A stretch of DNA of 64,000 nucleotides from Sergeia podlipaevii. Taxonomy: Eukaryota > Euglenozoa > Kinetoplastea > Trypanosomatida > Trypanosomatidae. The translations under genes were made by a program, and so were the position numbers. Positions 13,822 through 32,307 of this stretch are shown one piece after another. How positions within the stretch are numbered: position 1 is the first letter of the stretch; every line of letters begins with the position of its first letter. Where the stretch lies: NCBI GenBank assembly GCA_030849805.1, contig JASANZ010002234.1, forward strand, positions 1 to 64,000. The letters run 5' to 3'. The notes under the pieces are model-generated. The model saw only the letters and a list, made by a program, of their open reading frames with translations, did no database searches and was not told the origin of the DNA.

Positions 13822-15702
13822 TTACATCAGCTCAGGTTCACCCCTCACGGCAGTATCCTCCTCACACTTAAGCAACTCATTCTTCATGACACGGCGCAAC
13901 TTTAGAAACCAGTTATGATACTCAGTTGTCTTGCCTTTGATACGGTACGACATCACCTTTGTATAACCTGGGGCCGCAGCAAGCAAGCGCACACCAACCT
14001 CAAGCACCTTCTTTCCATCCACCAAATAAGTGCCGTACAAGAAACCGGCAACGTCGCCCTCCTCAAAAATAGAGTCTAGAGCATCTTGCTTTGCAATCAA
14101 GTGGGCCTTGATCATCTCACGCATACCTGCAACGGTGTATCCAGTGTTGAGGTAGCTCTTAAACGACGTGTGTTCTGTGATCTCAAAAAAGTTCTCCAGT
14201 CTCCGAAGGCGAATAGCTAGCGGGTGCTTCTTGAGCAAATCATACTTGAGACAGAGATCCACAAAATTCTCAAATGTCATCGATGACATTCCCTTGTGTG
14301 AAGGATCGACGGCGTCAAAGAGCGTTTGGATGTCGGCATCTGTTAGGCCGAGGCCAAGCGTTTTCATGTTTTGCTTCGTAATAATCCCCGAGTGCTCCGT
14401 GTCAATTGAGTCAAACGCCTTTCGCAGATCTGCTAAGAATTCCTTCTCCAAATCGTAGTGGAACAGATCGGCCATGCGTCCCAGATTATACTTCTTGCCT
14501 AAAGCGTTTTGATGGCGTGACCAACCAATGACAAATTCCTCCTCAGTAATAAGTCCATCGCTATCAAGTTGGAAGTTGCTCATAAAGTCGTTCACCTCCT
14601 TGTCGCTAACTTCCAGGCCGTTATTAAGCTTAATGAGAGCATCCCGCACTTCTTCTCTATGCAAGTAGCCATCTCCAGTAATGTTTACATTGAGAAAAGC
14701 TTGATGAATTTCGTTGATCTTCTCCACTGTAGGCGAGGCGGGATTTTTGATAGCCGCTGCCGCTGCTGGTCCCTCTTGGGGCGTGATGGCACGCTGGATA
14801 AACTCTCCAGAGTACGGGCTTTGCGGAGAGGCCTGCACACTCTCGTTTGGAAACAACGATACGTCCAGGTCAACCTGAAACCACGGGTGGTGTAACACAT
14901 CGGTAGTGCTGTACCGTTTCTTGGGATCGCGCTCAAGTAAATGCTGAATAACATCAGAAGCCTCAGATGAAAGGTAGCGGTTGGTCTTGTTGTACTGGCA
15001 GCTCAAAATGCGCTTTCTCGTCAAACCGTCTGAACGATCTGTAAAAGGGAGATAGCCGCATAACATAAAAAACAAAATGCATCCACAACTCCAGAGGTCA
15101 CAAGCGCTGCCTTCATATCCGCACTCCTTTAAGACTTCTGGGGCTTGATAGTCTATGCTCCCAGCGAGTGAGGTAAATAGGACTTTGTTATCGCTGAAGG
15201 TGCCTTCTTTGGTATAGCGGGAAAGCCCAAAGTCACAAACTTTCAAGACGTTGTTCTCACCCAGTAATAGATTTTCAGCCTTTAGATCACGATGTACAAT
15301 ATTCATTTTGTGGCAATAGTGTACTGCACTGATGAGTTGCTGGAAATAGTTGCGCGCCACTGCTTCTGTGAAACGCTGCGAATCAACAATTTTATCAAAT
15401 AGTTCACCGTTCGTGGCGAGCTCCATGACAAGATTATACGCTTTAGACGTTTCAATAGCTTCCAGTAGACGCACCACATGCGGACACTTGATCTTGCGCA
15501 TCATCTCTATCTCACGCTCCACGTACGCCTGGATGCCATCATTCTTGACCAGTACTTTGTCAATCATTTTCACCGCAACATTCATCTTTTTGATCGTGTC
15601 ATACGCGAAGTAGACCTTCCCAAACCCACCAGACCCCACTACATGGCCTAACTCGATATGTCCTCCAATAACGGTCTTGCTTTTTCCTGAAGCAGACGCC
15701 AT
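13822..15702 (-). CDS. CAMK-family Ser/Thr kinase with C-terminal EF-hand-like repeats (CDPK-like)
   Basis: 626 residues from the ATG at 15702 (the frame extends 23 codons to a GTG, not used). The kinase domain (about 15-280) is complete: GSGGFGKVY loop, VAVKMI lysine, HRDLKAENLL catalytic loop, CDFGLS, APE (QAPEVLKE) and a CAMK-type DLWSCGCILFFMLCGYLPF. After a Pro/Ala linker, about 335-500 holds four EF-hand-like units, but all are degenerate: NITGDGYLHREE, QLDSDGLITEEE, DTEHSGIITKQN and DPSHKGMSSMTF lack several calcium ligands. The last 120 residues form an unrecognised domain (VAGFLYGTYLVDGKKVLEVG). The layout is that of calcium-dependent protein kinases, but calcium control is doubtful. 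No myristoylation signal (Met-Ala start). Confidence 0.85.
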   Translation of the reverse strand: MASASGKSKTVIGGHIELGHVVGSGGFGKVYFAYDTIKKMNVAVKMIDKVLVKNDGIQAYVEREIEMMRKIKCPHVVRLLEAIETSKAYNLVMELATNGELFDKIVDSQRFTEAVARNYFQQLISAVHYCHKMNIVHRDLKAENLLLGENNVLKVCDFGLSRYTKEGTFSDNKVLFTSLAGSIDYQAPEVLKECGYEGSACDLWSCGCILFFMLCGYLPFTDRSDGLTRKRILSCQYNKTNRYLSSEASDVIQHLLERDPKKRYSTTDVLHHPWFQVDLDVSLFPNESVQASPQSPYSGEFIQRAITPQEGPAAAAAIKNPASPTVEKINEIHQAFLNVNITGDGYLHREEVRDALIKLNNGLEVSDKEVNDFMSNFQLDSDGLITEEEFVIGWSRHQNALGKKYNLGRMADLFHYDLEKEFLADLRKAFDSIDTEHSGIITKQNMKTLGLGLTDADIQTLFDAVDPSHKGMSSMTFENFVDLCLKYDLLKKHPLAIRLRRLENFFEITEHTSFKSYLNTGYTVAGMREMIKAHLIAKQDALDSIFEEGDVAGFLYGTYLVDGKKVLEVGVRLLAAAPGYTKVMSYRIKGKTTEYHNWFLKLRRVMKNELLKCEEDTAVRGEPELM

Positions 15703-16489
15703 CTTCCAGACACACAGTGAAAATGATGAAGCAAACAATACTTTTCTGATGTCAATCTCTTTGCTCTTCACGTGTATTCTAACGATTTGTACGTAACCCG
15801 CCTTCTTTTAATTATTCCTTTCTGCCTTACCGGTGAAGTTTTCTCCTTTCAAAAAGAAAAAAAAGATCCAAATCTTATTTGCCTTCCGCGTATGTTAACG
15901 GTGTACGTATATTCTTTTAAAGCAAAAGAAAATGACAGTAAACTGTGTAGAACACACTAACGGGCTCACAGATCCGAAATAATTTGTGCAAAATCGTACA
16001 ATTTAACACTATATTTTTTTTGATATATTTTTTGGTATATTTTTTTTGCACTGACAAAACTGAGGTGCTTTTGCTTTATTTTATCGGTCCCAATGTAATA
16101 TGTATACTTTTTTTTGGAAAAAGCGCCACTTCGGCACTAAAAAAAAAAAAAAATTGATCGAAAAAAAAAAATGACGAGACTAAGGAAACGCTACAAAGTG
16201 TAAGTAAAAAACTAAGCAGATATACTAATTAAAACTTTAAAAAAGAAAAGATCAAAATGAGAAAGAAAGAAAAAGAAATTGTTTGTTTGGATTAGGGTCA
16301 GAAAAGTATCCACACCTCGCAAAAAGGAGTAGAGACAGGGAGAGGGGGGGGGGGGGNGGGGGGGGGGGATGACAGCGCTTCGCAAAGCAGTATCCTCAAT
16401 AAATAGTATTTGTTAAGTGACTCCTCCACAGCAGACGCTTTATAGGCCATGATGATGTCATCTGATAATAATAATAAAACGTTCCCCAA
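15703..16489. other. Spacer with A/T runs and a G homopolymer
   Basis: Holds A-runs at 16140 and 16160, T-rich repeats near 16010-16050, and a G homopolymer with an N at 16344-16368 just after the ISWI stop (C-rich in the mRNA). No gene supported. Confidence 0.5.
16344..16368. repeat. G homopolymer containing an N
   Basis: About 24 G with one undetermined base at 16357. Length is unreliable; on the transcribed strand it is a C-run in the ISWI 3' UTR. Confidence 0.9.
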
Positions 16490-25340: not shown

Positions 25341-27710
25341 CTAGTGTCTGGCGCCACCAATCACCGCCCTGAGCGCTGACACAACCTGATCCGCCTCATT
25401 CACAGTGGCAAAAGAATCCCAGCTGATACGGATAGAACGGGTAGGAGCAGGGGGCTTCCCAAGAGTGTCGTACACAGTGGTGTTTTCCTCGTTCGTTTTG
25501 CAAGCGGAGCCGGTTCCAATCTCAACGTGGTACTTGGTGGATAGCTTGGCTACAACTTCGGTGTTGTTTAGACCCTCTGGTAGCGTCGCGTGCACGACAT
25601 ACCCGCTGGTTTCGCCACGGCTGTTAATGTCGCAGCCGAGCGCCATCAACTCCTCAATCATTAATGATTCAATCTCTCGATGGATAGAGTGGCTACGATC
25701 AATCTTGAGTGCCTCACCAAAGCCAACAATCGCTGGTACATTCTCAGTACCTGGGCGAATGCCCTTTTCTTGTGAGCCACCGCCATACAGTTTGTGACAC
25801 TCGAGATTGCGCAGATACACTGCCGCGCAGCCAACGGGGCCGTTGATTTTATGAGCGGTGACAGTCATTGAATCAACTTCGCTCAAGTCGAGTGTGCTGA
25901 AGTCAATCTTCGTGAGCGCCTGGCTCGCGTCCACGTGGAGACGGCCACCAGGAGGGCGTTTAAGCTCGCGGTTAATGCTGCCAGTTTCATGGTTCACCAG
26001 GTCTATCACCTTCACCACGTGCGCATCATCCCTCACGGCAGGTGACCCACTCGTGGACGCGTGAGACCATGCGTCTCGCACGACCTTGTACCCGTTGAGA
26101 GCAATGTTGTTCGACTCTGTGCCGCCACTGGTGAATATAATGTCAGTCGCTGGAATCCCAAGGACACGAGCTAGCTGGCTGCGGACAGCCTCTACCGCCA
26201 TGCGCGCCTCCCGACCGCTTTGGTGCATACTATTTGGATTTCCTTCTGGAGCGTTCATCATAGCTCGTTTCACTCCCTCCGTCATCTTGGTGCCCGCAGC
26301 CGCGTCAAAGTAGATCAAGTCGCTGGTGCTCTCGCTGTGCGTTCCATCGTGGGGATTAACGATGGCAGTGTCCTCAGTGCTGCGCAACCCAGACTCTGGA
26401 GCAAACATGTAATTGGACGACTCACACAACTTCCCGCCACGGTATATTTCTCGCAGAACTGGAAGTTCACTGAAGACAAGACGGCGCACACACGCAAAAA
26501 GCGTCCGCCGCCCCATGTACAGATTTGCACCTGTCTTGCACATCATGTACTGACAGCAGTCAGCTCCTTCCTGAATTGAGTACTCAAACGTGCCAATCTT
26601 CCGTGCCTCGTCAACGATATAGTTTTTGTCCATGCCAATCAGCGGTGAAATTATAGCCTTCTTAATGGAAGGGTACAAAGTGCTGAGGTTTGCAACTGTC
26701 TGCGACGCTACCTGCCCGGCAGAATCGCCAGTAACAATAAAGCGTGCGTCATCAAATCCTGCAGCGAGAGAGAGCATCACCCACTTGTATATGAGCGTAC
26801 GGTTGTGGTTGGGAACCTGCGCTACAATCTGCGATTGAAGCTTGCTAATATCCACGTAATGCATGTCGAAGCGACCCTGCACAAGAGACAACTTCTCACA
26901 AATTCGTCGGTTCTTCTCAATAACAGCTGCAGTGTCGTTGGTGCTGTTAAGAAAATGAACACCGCTGACAAAGCAACCGCGAGTCATCATGCGGTACGCC
27001 GCCACAGGACTGTCAATACCACCGCTGAGTAGAGTAAGCGCTGGCTGGTCAGGAATAATCGGGATGCCACCGGCACCATCCATGAGAAACTTACCACGTG
27101 GATCACCAGATAGCTCAGTTTTCTTGCTTTCATATATCTTTGCAATGCCCGGAACGAGAGAAAGCAGCTTCAGTTGCTCAGAAGTAGGCACCTTCTTGCG
27201 GGCTTCGAGCATGCAATTGCCATTTCGAAAAACTTGCGGATTTTCGAGTACGCGACGTACGGCGTCAATAAGAAGACGTATGAGACGCTTCTGATGAAGC
27301 GCACTTTTCAGATATAGCTCAGCCACTGTCAGCACCAGTGTGGCTTTCTCCGCGGGCGGCTCCGCATGACGCTTCCCAAAAAAGTACTCCGAGCGATTGT
27401 TGATGTTACCAAGGCATACGTACGGCTCACCATCCGTAGTGCTGGCGCAAGTCTTTTTTTGTATTTCATACCCAGACTTGTCCGTGGCGTACCAGCGTCT
27501 TCCAGGGACGCGCATTTCCTCCTCTAACTGATCCACAGACACTCGCTTCGGTTCCGACATGTACCAAAGATAGTTTTTAGTCACATCCGGCTCCTTTTCC
27601 ATAAAATGAAAATTGCCGTTCTTCGCCTTGAGAATAAACTTGGGGGTCTTATCTTGCGGGTAAAAACGAGGATTGGTGCTCAACCGCTCCTTTTGGGGTT
27701 GTTCCGCCAT
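25341..27710 (-). CDS. Fusion of ThiI-type tRNA thiouridine synthetase and cysteine desulfurase
   Basis: 789 residues from an ATG at 27710, one uninterrupted frame. Residues 1-120 are unrecognised. About 123-200 match the ThiI N-terminal ferredoxin-like domain (LVLTVAELYLKSALHQKRL; LVPGIAKI). The THUMP domain that should follow is essentially missing. About 218-420 is the adenylating PP-loop domain: SGGIDSPVAAY (229-239), VTGDSAGQVASQT, and a CC pair (385-386) at the position of the catalytic cysteine of bacterial ThiI. About 464-789 is a class V cysteine desulfurase: SGGTES, HVDASQ, PLP lysine K621 in TAHK, GIRPGTENV, active cysteine C737 in GSACKT and Arg761. It lacks about 35 residues that normally hold the PLP-stacking His. 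Expected role: take sulfur from cysteine and place it on tRNA (or another acceptor). No targeting signal. Confidence 0.9.
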   Translation of the reverse strand: MAEQPQKERLSTNPRFYPQDKTPKFILKAKNGNFHFMEKEPDVTKNYLWYMSEPKRVSVDQLEEEMRVPGRRWYATDKSGYEIQKKTCASTTDGEPYVCLGNINNRSEYFFGKRHAEPPAEKATLVLTVAELYLKSALHQKRLIRLLIDAVRRVLENPQVFRNGNCMLEARKKVPTSEQLKLLSLVPGIAKIYESKKTELSGDPRGKFLMDGAGGIPIIPDQPALTLLSGGIDSPVAAYRMMTRGCFVSGVHFLNSTNDTAAVIEKNRRICEKLSLVQGRFDMHYVDISKLQSQIVAQVPNHNRTLIYKWVMLSLAAGFDDARFIVTGDSAGQVASQTVANLSTLYPSIKKAIISPLIGMDKNYIVDEARKIGTFEYSIQEGADCCQYMMCKTGANLYMGRRTLFACVRRLVFSELPVLREIYRGGKLCESSNYMFAPESGLRSTEDTAIVNPHDGTHSESTSDLIYFDAAAGTKMTEGVKRAMMNAPEGNPNSMHQSGREARMAVEAVRSQLARVLGIPATDIIFTSGGTESNNIALNGYKVVRDAWSHASTSGSPAVRDDAHVVKVIDLVNHETGSINRELKRPPGGRLHVDASQALTKIDFSTLDLSEVDSMTVTAHKINGPVGCAAVYLRNLECHKLYGGGSQEKGIRPGTENVPAIVGFGEALKIDRSHSIHREIESLMIEELMALGCDINSRGETSGYVVHATLPEGLNNTEVVAKLSTKYHVEIGTGSACKTNEENTTVYDTLGKPPAPTRSIRISWDSFATVNEADQVVSALRAVIGGARH

Positions 27711-27726
27711 GGCTGTTATCTATTTT

Positions 27727-27758
27727 CTAGCACCGGAAAAAGTAAGGAGAAGAAAAAT
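27727..27758 (-). promoter_or_regulatory. Candidate trans-splice acceptor for the ThiI/desulfurase gene
   Basis: On the minus strand a pyrimidine tract (27735-27758, CTTCTCCTTACTTTTTCC type) is followed by AG at 27728-27727, only about 16 nt before the ATG at 27710. This supports that ATG as the start. Confidence 0.5.
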
Positions 27759-28253
27759 GACCATTAATAAACAAGGAAAATACATACATGAACTGAAGTG
27801 TTCGCAGCACTTTGCATCTTTAAGTGGCACGTGTATTCCTAGCAAGGGCGTATGTACGTAAAAATAAGCGCACGCACACACACACAAAAAAAAGTCATTG
27901 TTTTCTTTTATGTTGTTGTTGAATTAAGAAAGCAATTAAACCTGATAAACGTGTCCGCTGATCCACGACGATATGACCATTCACACCTTCAACAAGCAAA
28001 TAGTGATGATACCAACATCAGCCACTACCTTCCCCTCCGCACCTCTGTCAAAAATCACAAGTAACAGAAGCCGAAAGTAGAACACTATACAGAAACCCAC
28101 ATACAAAAACGCACACAGAAGAAAAAAAAAACGTAAACTAGGCGGGAGGAGAGAGGACATGCCGTAATGAGGACAGCTTGCCTCGGCGAGATTCATAGAA
28201 AGTTACTGAGACTTTCTTCTTTGCCTAAGAATTTCCTTGTTGTACTCAACACG
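27759..28253. other. Spacer
   Basis: Short CA repeat near 27877 and A-run at 28120. No gene supported. Confidence 0.4.
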
Positions 28254-31001: not shown

Positions 31002-31802
31002 CTATGCGGAACAAAAAAAGATATTGGCACTACGTTCTCCGTGTGTTGTGGCCCACCTGAGGGAAAGAAGAGCCAAGCCGCCTTGCCCAAAGGAGAGAGT
31101 GACCTTCTGGGTATTGCCAGACAGAGACCCGCACAACGCGGCGAACGAAGATAAGTCACTGCAACGAGCAGATGCCTCCCTGTTACCTGCGCCACAAGAA
31201 AGAGAGCATCCCGCGAGTCTCATCGAGGTTGCAACAGTGCTAGTGGTTATGACAAGAGCGCACGTACCATCATACTCACGCTGCAAAACAACATCACACA
31301 CATCCTCATCGGAGACGGACACTTGACGGACTAACTGCCTGAAGCCCGGCACGTCATCCACCACAAACTCGTCATCGCTGCTGTGACACACCACTAAATT
31401 CTGGCCAAGGTTGAACATGACACCAATCTGTGCAACCCGCGTTGCGCCGCTTTCTTCGTTCCTTTGATAAAAATATAATGTGTTCAAGGTGTCGCCTAAC
31501 TCCATCGTAAGTGGCTCTTGGAGTTCAAAGGTCCCTAGCACGCGCATCAAAAAAACGCAATCAACCTCCCACGTGTGCTTGACTTCTTCTGTAGCTACTC
31601 GCTTGGCGGACCGCTCATGCTGATTATCGTACACCACATCTGTAAAGCAGAATGGCGGAACATGGACAATGGACAATCTCAAGGACCGTGATGAAGACCC
31701 TCTCCCTCCCTCTAAAACAAACACAATCGTATCATCAAAACCACTCAAATATTTAACCGCGTACTGCAACTCGCCGGCCGATGAGAAATTAAAAGCAGGC
31801 AT
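31002..31802 (-). CDS. Rad1-like subunit of the 9-1-1 checkpoint clamp
   Basis: 266 residues from the ATG at 31802, close to the 280 of animal Rad1. The overall pattern of a PCNA-fold clamp is visible. The central CVFLMRVLGTF aligns with the Rad1 TVLLDCLSIFG strand-helix. GFRQLVRQVSVSDEDVCDVVL resembles GLREAFSELDMTSEVLQITM, with the interdomain connector before it. The end QKVTLSFGQGGLALLSLRW parallels Rad1 KVSIRTDNRGFLSLQYMI. Rad9-Rad1-Hus1 loads at damaged DNA and signals replication stress; the complex is known in Leishmania. Sequence similarity is low, and a Hus1-like identity cannot be excluded. Confidence 0.55.
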   Translation of the reverse strand: MPAFNFSSAGELQYAVKYLSGFDDTIVFVLEGGRGSSSRSLRLSIVHVPPFCFTDVVYDNQHERSAKRVATEEVKHTWEVDCVFLMRVLGTFELQEPLTMELGDTLNTLYFYQRNEESGATRVAQIGVMFNLGQNLVVCHSSDDEFVVDDVPGFRQLVRQVSVSDEDVCDVVLQREYDGTCALVITTSTVATSMRLAGCSLSCGAGNREASARCSDLSSFAALCGSLSGNTQKVTLSFGQGGLALLSLRWATTHGERSANIFFCSA

Positions 31803-32307
31803 TACTACTGACACTACTCAACGGTAACACTAACAATAGCAATAGTAGTGAAAAACTAAACAATAGGAGCCTCCCTCCTCTAGCAGCACCACAAACGCGA
31901 TTTGTGTAGCAGCGCGCTAATGTTAGCAACGGTATGTAAAAAAAAAAAAGAAAGAAAGAAAAAGCAGTAGAGCAATAATACGAGAAAAGAAAGCTTGTGA
32001 ACGCAAATCTCTTGTTAAATATATATATCACAAACAAAAGCATCCTCTTGAATGACAGCAGCATGAACACTCTCAGTTGTTCTCCTTTCGCACATTATTG
32101 TAAAAATATATATATAGAAACTGCGCATTTGTTGATTGTTAAGAATCAGAATACTTTGTAAAGATACAAGTTTACCCGGTAGCAAAGTTCCTTCTGCTCG
32201 GTAAAAAAAAACAAAAATGCAAACATTTTACCGCGTCGGTTGAAGTATTGAAAGTGAAGATTTCATCATTTAGAACCAAATAGCACAAGCAATGACACAT
32301 GATACAG
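31803..32307. other. Spacer
   Basis: A-run at 31939 followed by purine-rich bases, AT repeats near 32020 and 32105. No gene supported. Confidence 0.4.

Follow-up and report, generated by a model that had tools for sequence, protein, structure and literature searches.

A predicted single-chain ThiI-cysteine desulfurase in Sergeia podlipaevii and other kinetoplastids

The gene, its domains and its catalytic residues

We describe here a gene of the trypanosomatid Sergeia podlipaevii that joins a ThiI-type thiouridine synthetase and a cysteine desulfurase in one chain. It lies within the first 64,000 nucleotides of contig JASANZ010002234.1 (assembly GCA_030849805.1), the whole stretch that we analysed and refer to as the window, and forms a single unbroken frame of 789 residues, from ATG to stop, on the minus strand (27710 to 25341); read on the plus strand, the same interval is interrupted by stops. 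The minus strand carries 25 of the 29 open frames of at least 200 residues in the window. An AG stands 16 bases 5' of the ATG, after a pyrimidine-rich tract, and the start context is GCCATGG (judged by eye, not with a splice-site tool); as expected, this context fits a trans-spliced kinetoplastid mRNA. The original prediction, made from the letters alone, had proposed one 789-residue frame holding ThiI and a cysteine desulfurase. The frame, Pfam and sequence matches in the PDB bear this out, as they do its residue numbers for the SGGIDSP motif (229-235), K621 and C737; the strand had been left unstated.

The first half of the protein is recognized as ThiI by Pfam (PF02568, residues 224-390, E 2.7e-48) and by NCBIfam (residues 211-392), and its PDB sequence matches include the ThiI proteins of T. 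maritima (4kr6, E 6.1e-27) and B. anthracis. Ahead of the adenylating PP-loop domain, the ferredoxin-like RNA-binding domain of ThiI (NFLD) is kept, as judged from a profile comparison and from the predicted structure, residues 119-424 of which align to 4kr6; Pfam itself detects ThiI_fer in 7 of 38 aligned fusions, the window's own copy not being among those 7. The fusion thus shares with the T. maritima and B. anthracis enzymes (4kr6, 2c5s) the NFLD and PP-loop fold, the SGGxDS motif and C386, which aligns with Cys344, whereas those enzymes have a THUMP domain and no desulfurase.

The second half matches Pfam Aminotran_5 (PF00266) in two stretches, the better at residues 580-775 (E 6.7e-26), and NCBIfam NifS at residues 558-788, with PDB sequence matches to NifS, IscS and NFS1 at E values down to 1.2e-29. 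It has the catalytic residues and apparently the fold of IscS, NifS and mitochondrial NFS1, but is shortened after the active-site histidine: the spacing from H550 to D570 is 18-33 residues in 34 of the 38 aligned fusions and 50-73 in the other four (P0034-P0037), and in the window's copy 16 residues span 53 positions of the desulfurase profile. The shortened desulfurase of most copies keeps its active-site residues; loss of the active-site histidine was considered and rejected, H550 being invariant.

Residue counts were taken from an alignment of the window's protein with 37 related fusion clusters (P0001-P0037), 38 rows in all. On the ThiI side D329, Q333, K362, D384, C385 and C386 are identical throughout (38/38), and the PP-loop is conserved in each of the 37 rows that cover the site; two other cysteines, C391 (36/38) and C246 (35/38), are less constant. 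H496, H550, E575, D594, Q597, H620, K621, R652 and C737 are also invariant (38/38). We take H550, D594, Q597, H620, K621 and C737 to correspond to His104, Asp180, Gln183, His205, Lys206 and Cys328 of E. coli IscS. The set expected of a Group I desulfurase, namely the lysine that binds pyridoxal phosphate (PLP; K621), the histidine (H550), the aspartate (D594), the glutamine (Q597) and the persulfide cysteine (C737), is complete in every row, and by this measure both halves look catalytically complete.

Table 1. Features of the fusion gene, with residue numbers of the predicted protein
Feature	Positions in the window	Strand	Basis
Whole ThiI-cysteine desulfurase fusion gene	25341..27710	-	789 residues, one frame
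Probable spliced-leader acceptor: pyrimidine-rich tract and AG ahead of ATG	27727..27760	-	by eye
N-terminal domain, residues 15-121, conserved among kinetoplastid copies	27348..27668	-	alignment; no bacterial NFLD or THUMP match
Ferredoxin-like RNA-binding domain (NFLD) of ThiI, residues 121-196	27123..27350	-	hhalign probability 88, E 2.9e-6; structure match
ThiI PP-loop (adenylating) domain, residues 224-390, with SGGIDSP	26541..27041	-	Pfam, genome profile search, structure match, alignment
C385-C386; C386 aligned to active-site Cys344 of T. maritima ThiI (numbering from PMC4041423)	26553..26558	-	alignment, 38/38
Class I cysteine desulfurase half, residues 462-789	25344..26327	-	Pfam and family comparison
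H550, invariant, at the place of the desulfurase active-site His, ahead of the shortened segment	26061..26063	-	alignment
H620-K621; K621 the predicted PLP lysine	25848..25853	-	alignment
C737, predicted persulfide cysteine in the GSAC loop	25500..25502	-	alignment

Complete desulfurase residues would also suit a general cysteine desulfurase serving other acceptors (for instance the Urm1 pathway or iron-sulfur proteins), with the ThiI half confined to docking or regulation, and IscS does supply several acceptors (PMC8300815). The PP-loop and the active-site cysteines are, however, equally invariant, and a profile search of the genome (23.4 Mb, 576 contigs) returned other class V aminotransferase matches, the best two at E 9.9e-85 and 8.6e-43, so that no general need for such an enzyme is visible; we consider this explanation quite improbable. 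Profile matches also placed a separate MnmA-type gene on contig C493 (E 5e-31), and there was no second ThiI domain above the cut-off. A 663-residue frame at C564:24923-25075 (genome G000) has a weak PP-loop match to both the ThiI and MnmA profiles, under both cut-offs.

Two domains of other ThiI proteins are missing. Rhodanese is, as the original prediction had it, not among the Pfam families listed for the window's protein, and it is absent from the kinetoplastid fusions (0 of 38 rows at E 0.01). THUMP is found in none of the 38 rows at the same threshold, and PF02926 has no match in the entire genome at E 1, the family having been detected in 11 of 14 control genomes. The stretch leading up to SGG is 39 residues long in the window's copy (190-228) and 37-50 residues in 33 of the 38 rows, the remaining rows having 33 (P0027), 61 (P0029), 109 (P0035), 112 (P0034) and, in the fragment P0033, 0. 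In T. maritima ThiI, 109 residues separate Lys72 from the SGG at 182 (by alignment; PMC4041423). A THUMP hidden in the long rows P0034, P0035 and P0121 (the last a further relative, found with P0037 as query) was rejected, the hhalign probability being 4 and covering the tail of the NFLD only, against 99.7 for the positive control drawn from two bacterial fusions, P0038 and P0122.

Nor could the N-terminal domain be linked to a THUMP moved from its usual place: in hhalign, residues 15-121 reached a probability of only 0.8 against bacterial NFLD plus THUMP, and the structure-search lists held no THUMP protein for this domain, though matches of the PP-loop domain filled those lists. Comparison with the N-terminal parts of a second, P0123-type set of fusions (see below) gave a probability of 0.1 and no link. 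The original prediction had overlooked the lost THUMP, the kept NFLD, the additional N-terminal domain and the shortening of the desulfurase.

Kinetoplastid copies and other fusions of the same activities

A search of 5.8 billion proteins, in which 7998 candidates were scored, found both domains together, in the same order and at E values of at most 6.5e-98, in 37 clusters among the matches listed (the best 120 of 279). The source names include Leptomonas seymouri, several Leishmania, Strigomonas culicis, Angomonas deanei and Bodo saltans; P0034 carries the taxonomy identifier of Neobodo designis, and P0037 comes from clone PhM-4. Transcript-type names are borne by four of the 37 (P0026, P0032, P0034 and P0037), each of which covers some of the ThiI half and some of the desulfurase half. 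An assembly error that fused two neighbouring genes, which the original prediction had itself named as a test, would have to recur identically and in the same order in all 37 clusters, those four included; we found no point in its support and regard it as negligible.

Since the fusion is present in Neobodo and in trypanosomatids, it is at least as old as the split between them. Clone PhM-4 is Papus ankaliazontas, a free-living prokinetoplastid (PMC7859406), and if P0037 is as labelled, the fusion would match the known kinetoplastids in age. P0037 might still stem from prey, because a bodonid served as food in that culture and contaminants were removed from the transcriptome computationally (PMC7052976). 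None of the 37 rows among the matches listed (7998 candidates scored) bears a Trypanosoma name, many rows being nameless, although those drawn from nr or UniRef do name Leishmania, Leptomonas, Strigomonas, Angomonas and Bodo; this hints at a loss in Trypanosoma, and is suggestive only. As no fusion is named for Trypanosoma, a part in the 2-thiouridine 33 (s2U33) of T. brucei is unlikely. A table in PMC5372739 prints s4U33 for the trypanosomatid tRNA-Trp where the text has s2U33, probably a slip, and could mislead.

The original prediction knew of no such enzyme described in kinetoplastids. This stands as far as the open-licence PMC literature goes, where no description was found among the matches listed, judged from titles and the beginnings of abstracts; copies are, however, already in databases under names such as "thiamine biosynthesis-like protein". 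That label is misleading. A role in thiamine biosynthesis would follow from these names and from the part that ThiI plays in thiazole formation in enterobacteria. The rhodanese domain that is necessary and sufficient for that part in Salmonella (PMC5372745) is the very domain absent here, and the genomes of trypanosomatids are reported to lack the genes of the thiamine pathway (PMC3833962), which leaves such a role very unlikely.

For comparison we inspected bacterial ThiI loci (the best 80 of at least 590; flanks of at most 3 kb, less where a contig ended; phmmer, E 1e-10). A desulfurase frame lies beside ThiI in 24 of the 80, in each case upstream of it and in the same orientation, and no locus of the 80 has ThiI and desulfurase in one frame. 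Fusions of bacterial type do occur in metagenomes: P0038 and P0122 are complete desulfurase-ThiI chains with NFLD and THUMP by Pfam, and P0125, P0044 and P0086 hold both activities with an incomplete desulfurase part. P0038, P0122 and P0125 resemble the kinetoplastid protein in having both activities in one chain, but in reverse order, and on the ThiI side they share a clade with named Bacillota, apart from kinetoplastids.

There are two further sets. P0123, P0124 and P0130-P0133, eukaryote-like and 1030-1903 residues long, have ThiI first, as in kinetoplastids, most of them with long inserts and an additional N-terminal region; Pfam finds the NFLD in 5 of the 6 and THUMP in none (at E 0.1 for P0123 and P0124 and at E 1 for P0130-P0133). 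THUMP was sought by hhalign in a stretch of P0133, where the probability reached only 7; a divergent THUMP in this set is thus possible. P0127 and P0129 are reverse-order desulfurase-ThiI fusions, and in P0127 THUMP is matched at 22.8 bits. P0127 is an EukProt entry with a TRINITY name and has, by eye, a tyrosine where a histidine is expected before the PLP lysine.

Quick trees of each half were built without archaeal loci. The ThiI tree of 84 rows comprised 17 kinetoplastid, 6 P0123-type, 2 P0127-type and 5 bacterial fusions, 16 randomly drawn bacterial rows of the protein search and 38 of the 80 named loci; the desulfurase tree had 65 rows, one of the 24 bacterial desulfurase frames being left out as partial. 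Kinetoplastids form one clade in each (support 100 for ThiI, where they adjoin the P0123 type with a support of only 82, and 99 for the desulfurase). The desulfurase half does not cluster with the genome's own NFS-like gene, a pairing that the approximately unbiased (AU) test does not firmly reject (p 0.074). Joining kinetoplastids with the P0123 type was not rejected for the desulfurase (p 0.478); for ThiI, joining them with P0127/P0129 gave p 0.493, with the P0123 type and P0127/P0129 together p 0.484, and with P0038/P0122 p 0.055. The phylogeny of the halves, which the original prediction had called for along with profile searches, thus yields a kinetoplastid clade on each side and favours neither a single origin nor several origins of the eukaryotic fusions. 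That ThiI and a desulfurase have repeatedly been joined is itself evidence that the two activities cooperate, the number of joinings not being given by the trees.

A possible route from cysteine to RNA

In bacteria ThiI adenylates uridine 8 (U8) of tRNA, after which a persulfide attacks, and the rhodanese-less ThiI of Bacillus subtilis receives its sulfur straight from the cysteine desulfurase NifZ (PMC5372745). We propose that the fusion is a thiouridine synthetase that would by itself carry sulfur from cysteine to RNA, the persulfide of C737 serving the ThiI active site at C386, a proposal to which we give a probability of roughly 60%. Its observed basis is one frame, conserved domains and catalytic residues, a kept NFLD and a lost THUMP, and the best explanation, by analogy, is that the protein would correspond to a covalently joined NifZ-ThiI pair of Bacillus, in which a rhodanese-less ThiI is likewise served directly by a dedicated desulfurase (PMC5372745).

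The original prediction had suggested instead that the desulfurase replaced the rhodanese domain. This seems unneeded, as many bacterial ThiI proteins lack rhodanese and NifZ and ThiI of B. subtilis suffice together (PMC5372745), and a fused pair of that kind is the simpler account. There is a limit to the likeness: the B. subtilis enzymes are two proteins, the ThiI with NFLD, THUMP and PPase domains, and the desulfurase gene comes first there, as in the 24 bacterial pairs above, whereas the kinetoplastid protein is a single chain with ThiI first, no THUMP and an extra N-terminal domain. A tethered thiouridylase and desulfurase can function in a eukaryote, as with the engineered B. subtilis MnmA-YrvO fusion in the Plasmodium apicoplast (PMC10219651); that fusion differs in being man-made and an s2U34 enzyme.

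The C-terminal PLP domain would remove sulfur from cysteine and keep it as a persulfide on C737, while the NFLD may hold a tRNA, or a tRNA-like acceptor, and the PP-loop domain may adenylate the O4 of a uridine. The persulfide would then pass its sulfur to the activated base, either directly or via C385/C386, and C386 together with C737 (or C385) would form a disulfide that is reduced afterwards. A single chain that holds ThiI and desulfurase with their catalytic residues conserved is most naturally read as passing sulfur inside that chain or inside a dimer. Desulfurases of this type are dimers. Since ThiI too functions as a homodimer (PMC4041423), sulfur might move in cis or across subunits. 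For the T. maritima enzyme, which has one active-site cysteine, the authors speculate that a disulfide with the persulfide cysteine of IscS closes the cycle (PMC4041423).

The retention of the NFLD argues for an RNA acceptor. Alternatively, the THUMP-less PP-loop half might thiolate a nucleotide or cofactor, with its own PLP domain as feeder, in the manner of small-molecule sulfurtransferases such as LarE or YcfA; the lost THUMP leaves room for this and the kept NFLD speaks for RNA, and we consider it unlikely, if less so than the general desulfurase weighed above. For an RNA thiouridine synthetase, loss of THUMP argues that the ruler from the CCA end to U8 no longer holds, so that the position may be a different one or the N-terminal domain may act in its stead; judged from its domains, the enzyme need not target U8. 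As no mitochondrial targeting stretch is evident at the N-terminus (by eye, no predictor being used), we lean towards a cytosolic protein.

Several points weigh against the proposed synthetase. The missing THUMP is the domain that binds the CCA end and sets U8 in T. maritima ThiI (PMC4041423). The protein misses the equivalog cut-offs of all three families, with 187.9 versus 264.5 bits for ThiI (TIGR00342), 136.6 versus 530.75 for NifS and 111.1 versus 643.2 for IscS, and two positions of active-site type are not fully constant (R761 37/38; N573 31/38, with His in 7). The structure model of the whole chain has a predicted template modelling score (pTM) of 0.52, and therefore gives neither the relative placing of the halves nor a contact between C737 and C386. 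In line with the remark of the original prediction that 4-thiouridine (s4U) is not a usual eukaryotic modification, it is unreported in eukaryotes, though some eukaryotic genomes hold ThiI homologues (PMC5372739, PMC7694415). A Leishmania "thiamine biosynthesis-like protein (THIL)" coprecipitates with EIF4G3/EIF4G4 (PMC13067578), which fits a link to RNA and proves none, its identity with the fusion being by name alone; none of four relevant terms was found in the main text of a Leishmania mexicana RNA-interactome paper (PMC8826732).

The fusion points to an RNA-sulfuring machine that would be complete in itself, and no machine of this kind has so far been demonstrated in eukaryotes. The puzzle of eukaryotic ThiI gains a concrete enzyme, present from a putative prokinetoplastid to Leishmania, that has its own sulfur supply and lacks the bacterial target-setting domain, and the question of what eukaryotic ThiI homologues thiolate becomes directly testable in easily grown trypanosomatids. 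The fusion is, moreover, a naturally tethered pair on which the unsolved final step of s4U formation, namely which cysteine resolves the persulfide, could be approached. We advance more tentatively, as somewhat short of an even bet, the broader idea that 4-thiouridine, or a thiouridine whose position is not ruled by THUMP, is made in kinetoplastids by this single enzyme, with the persulfide cysteine of the desulfurase acting both as sulfur donor and as resolving partner of the thiolase cysteine; this would be the first shown eukaryotic thiolation of its type, and ancestral to the class.

Other observations

The protein matches included chains of about 1030-1150 residues, such as P0039 (named Dehalococcoidia), P0048 and P0070, that combine Pfam PF00384/PF01568, which we take to be molybdopterin oxidoreductase families, with PF00266. 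Elsewhere in the window, a single minus-strand frame at 13822-15771 encodes a protein kinase domain with EF-hand pairs, resembling a calcium-dependent protein kinase, and another minus-strand gene, at 31002-31814, encodes a protein with two DUF7881 domains.
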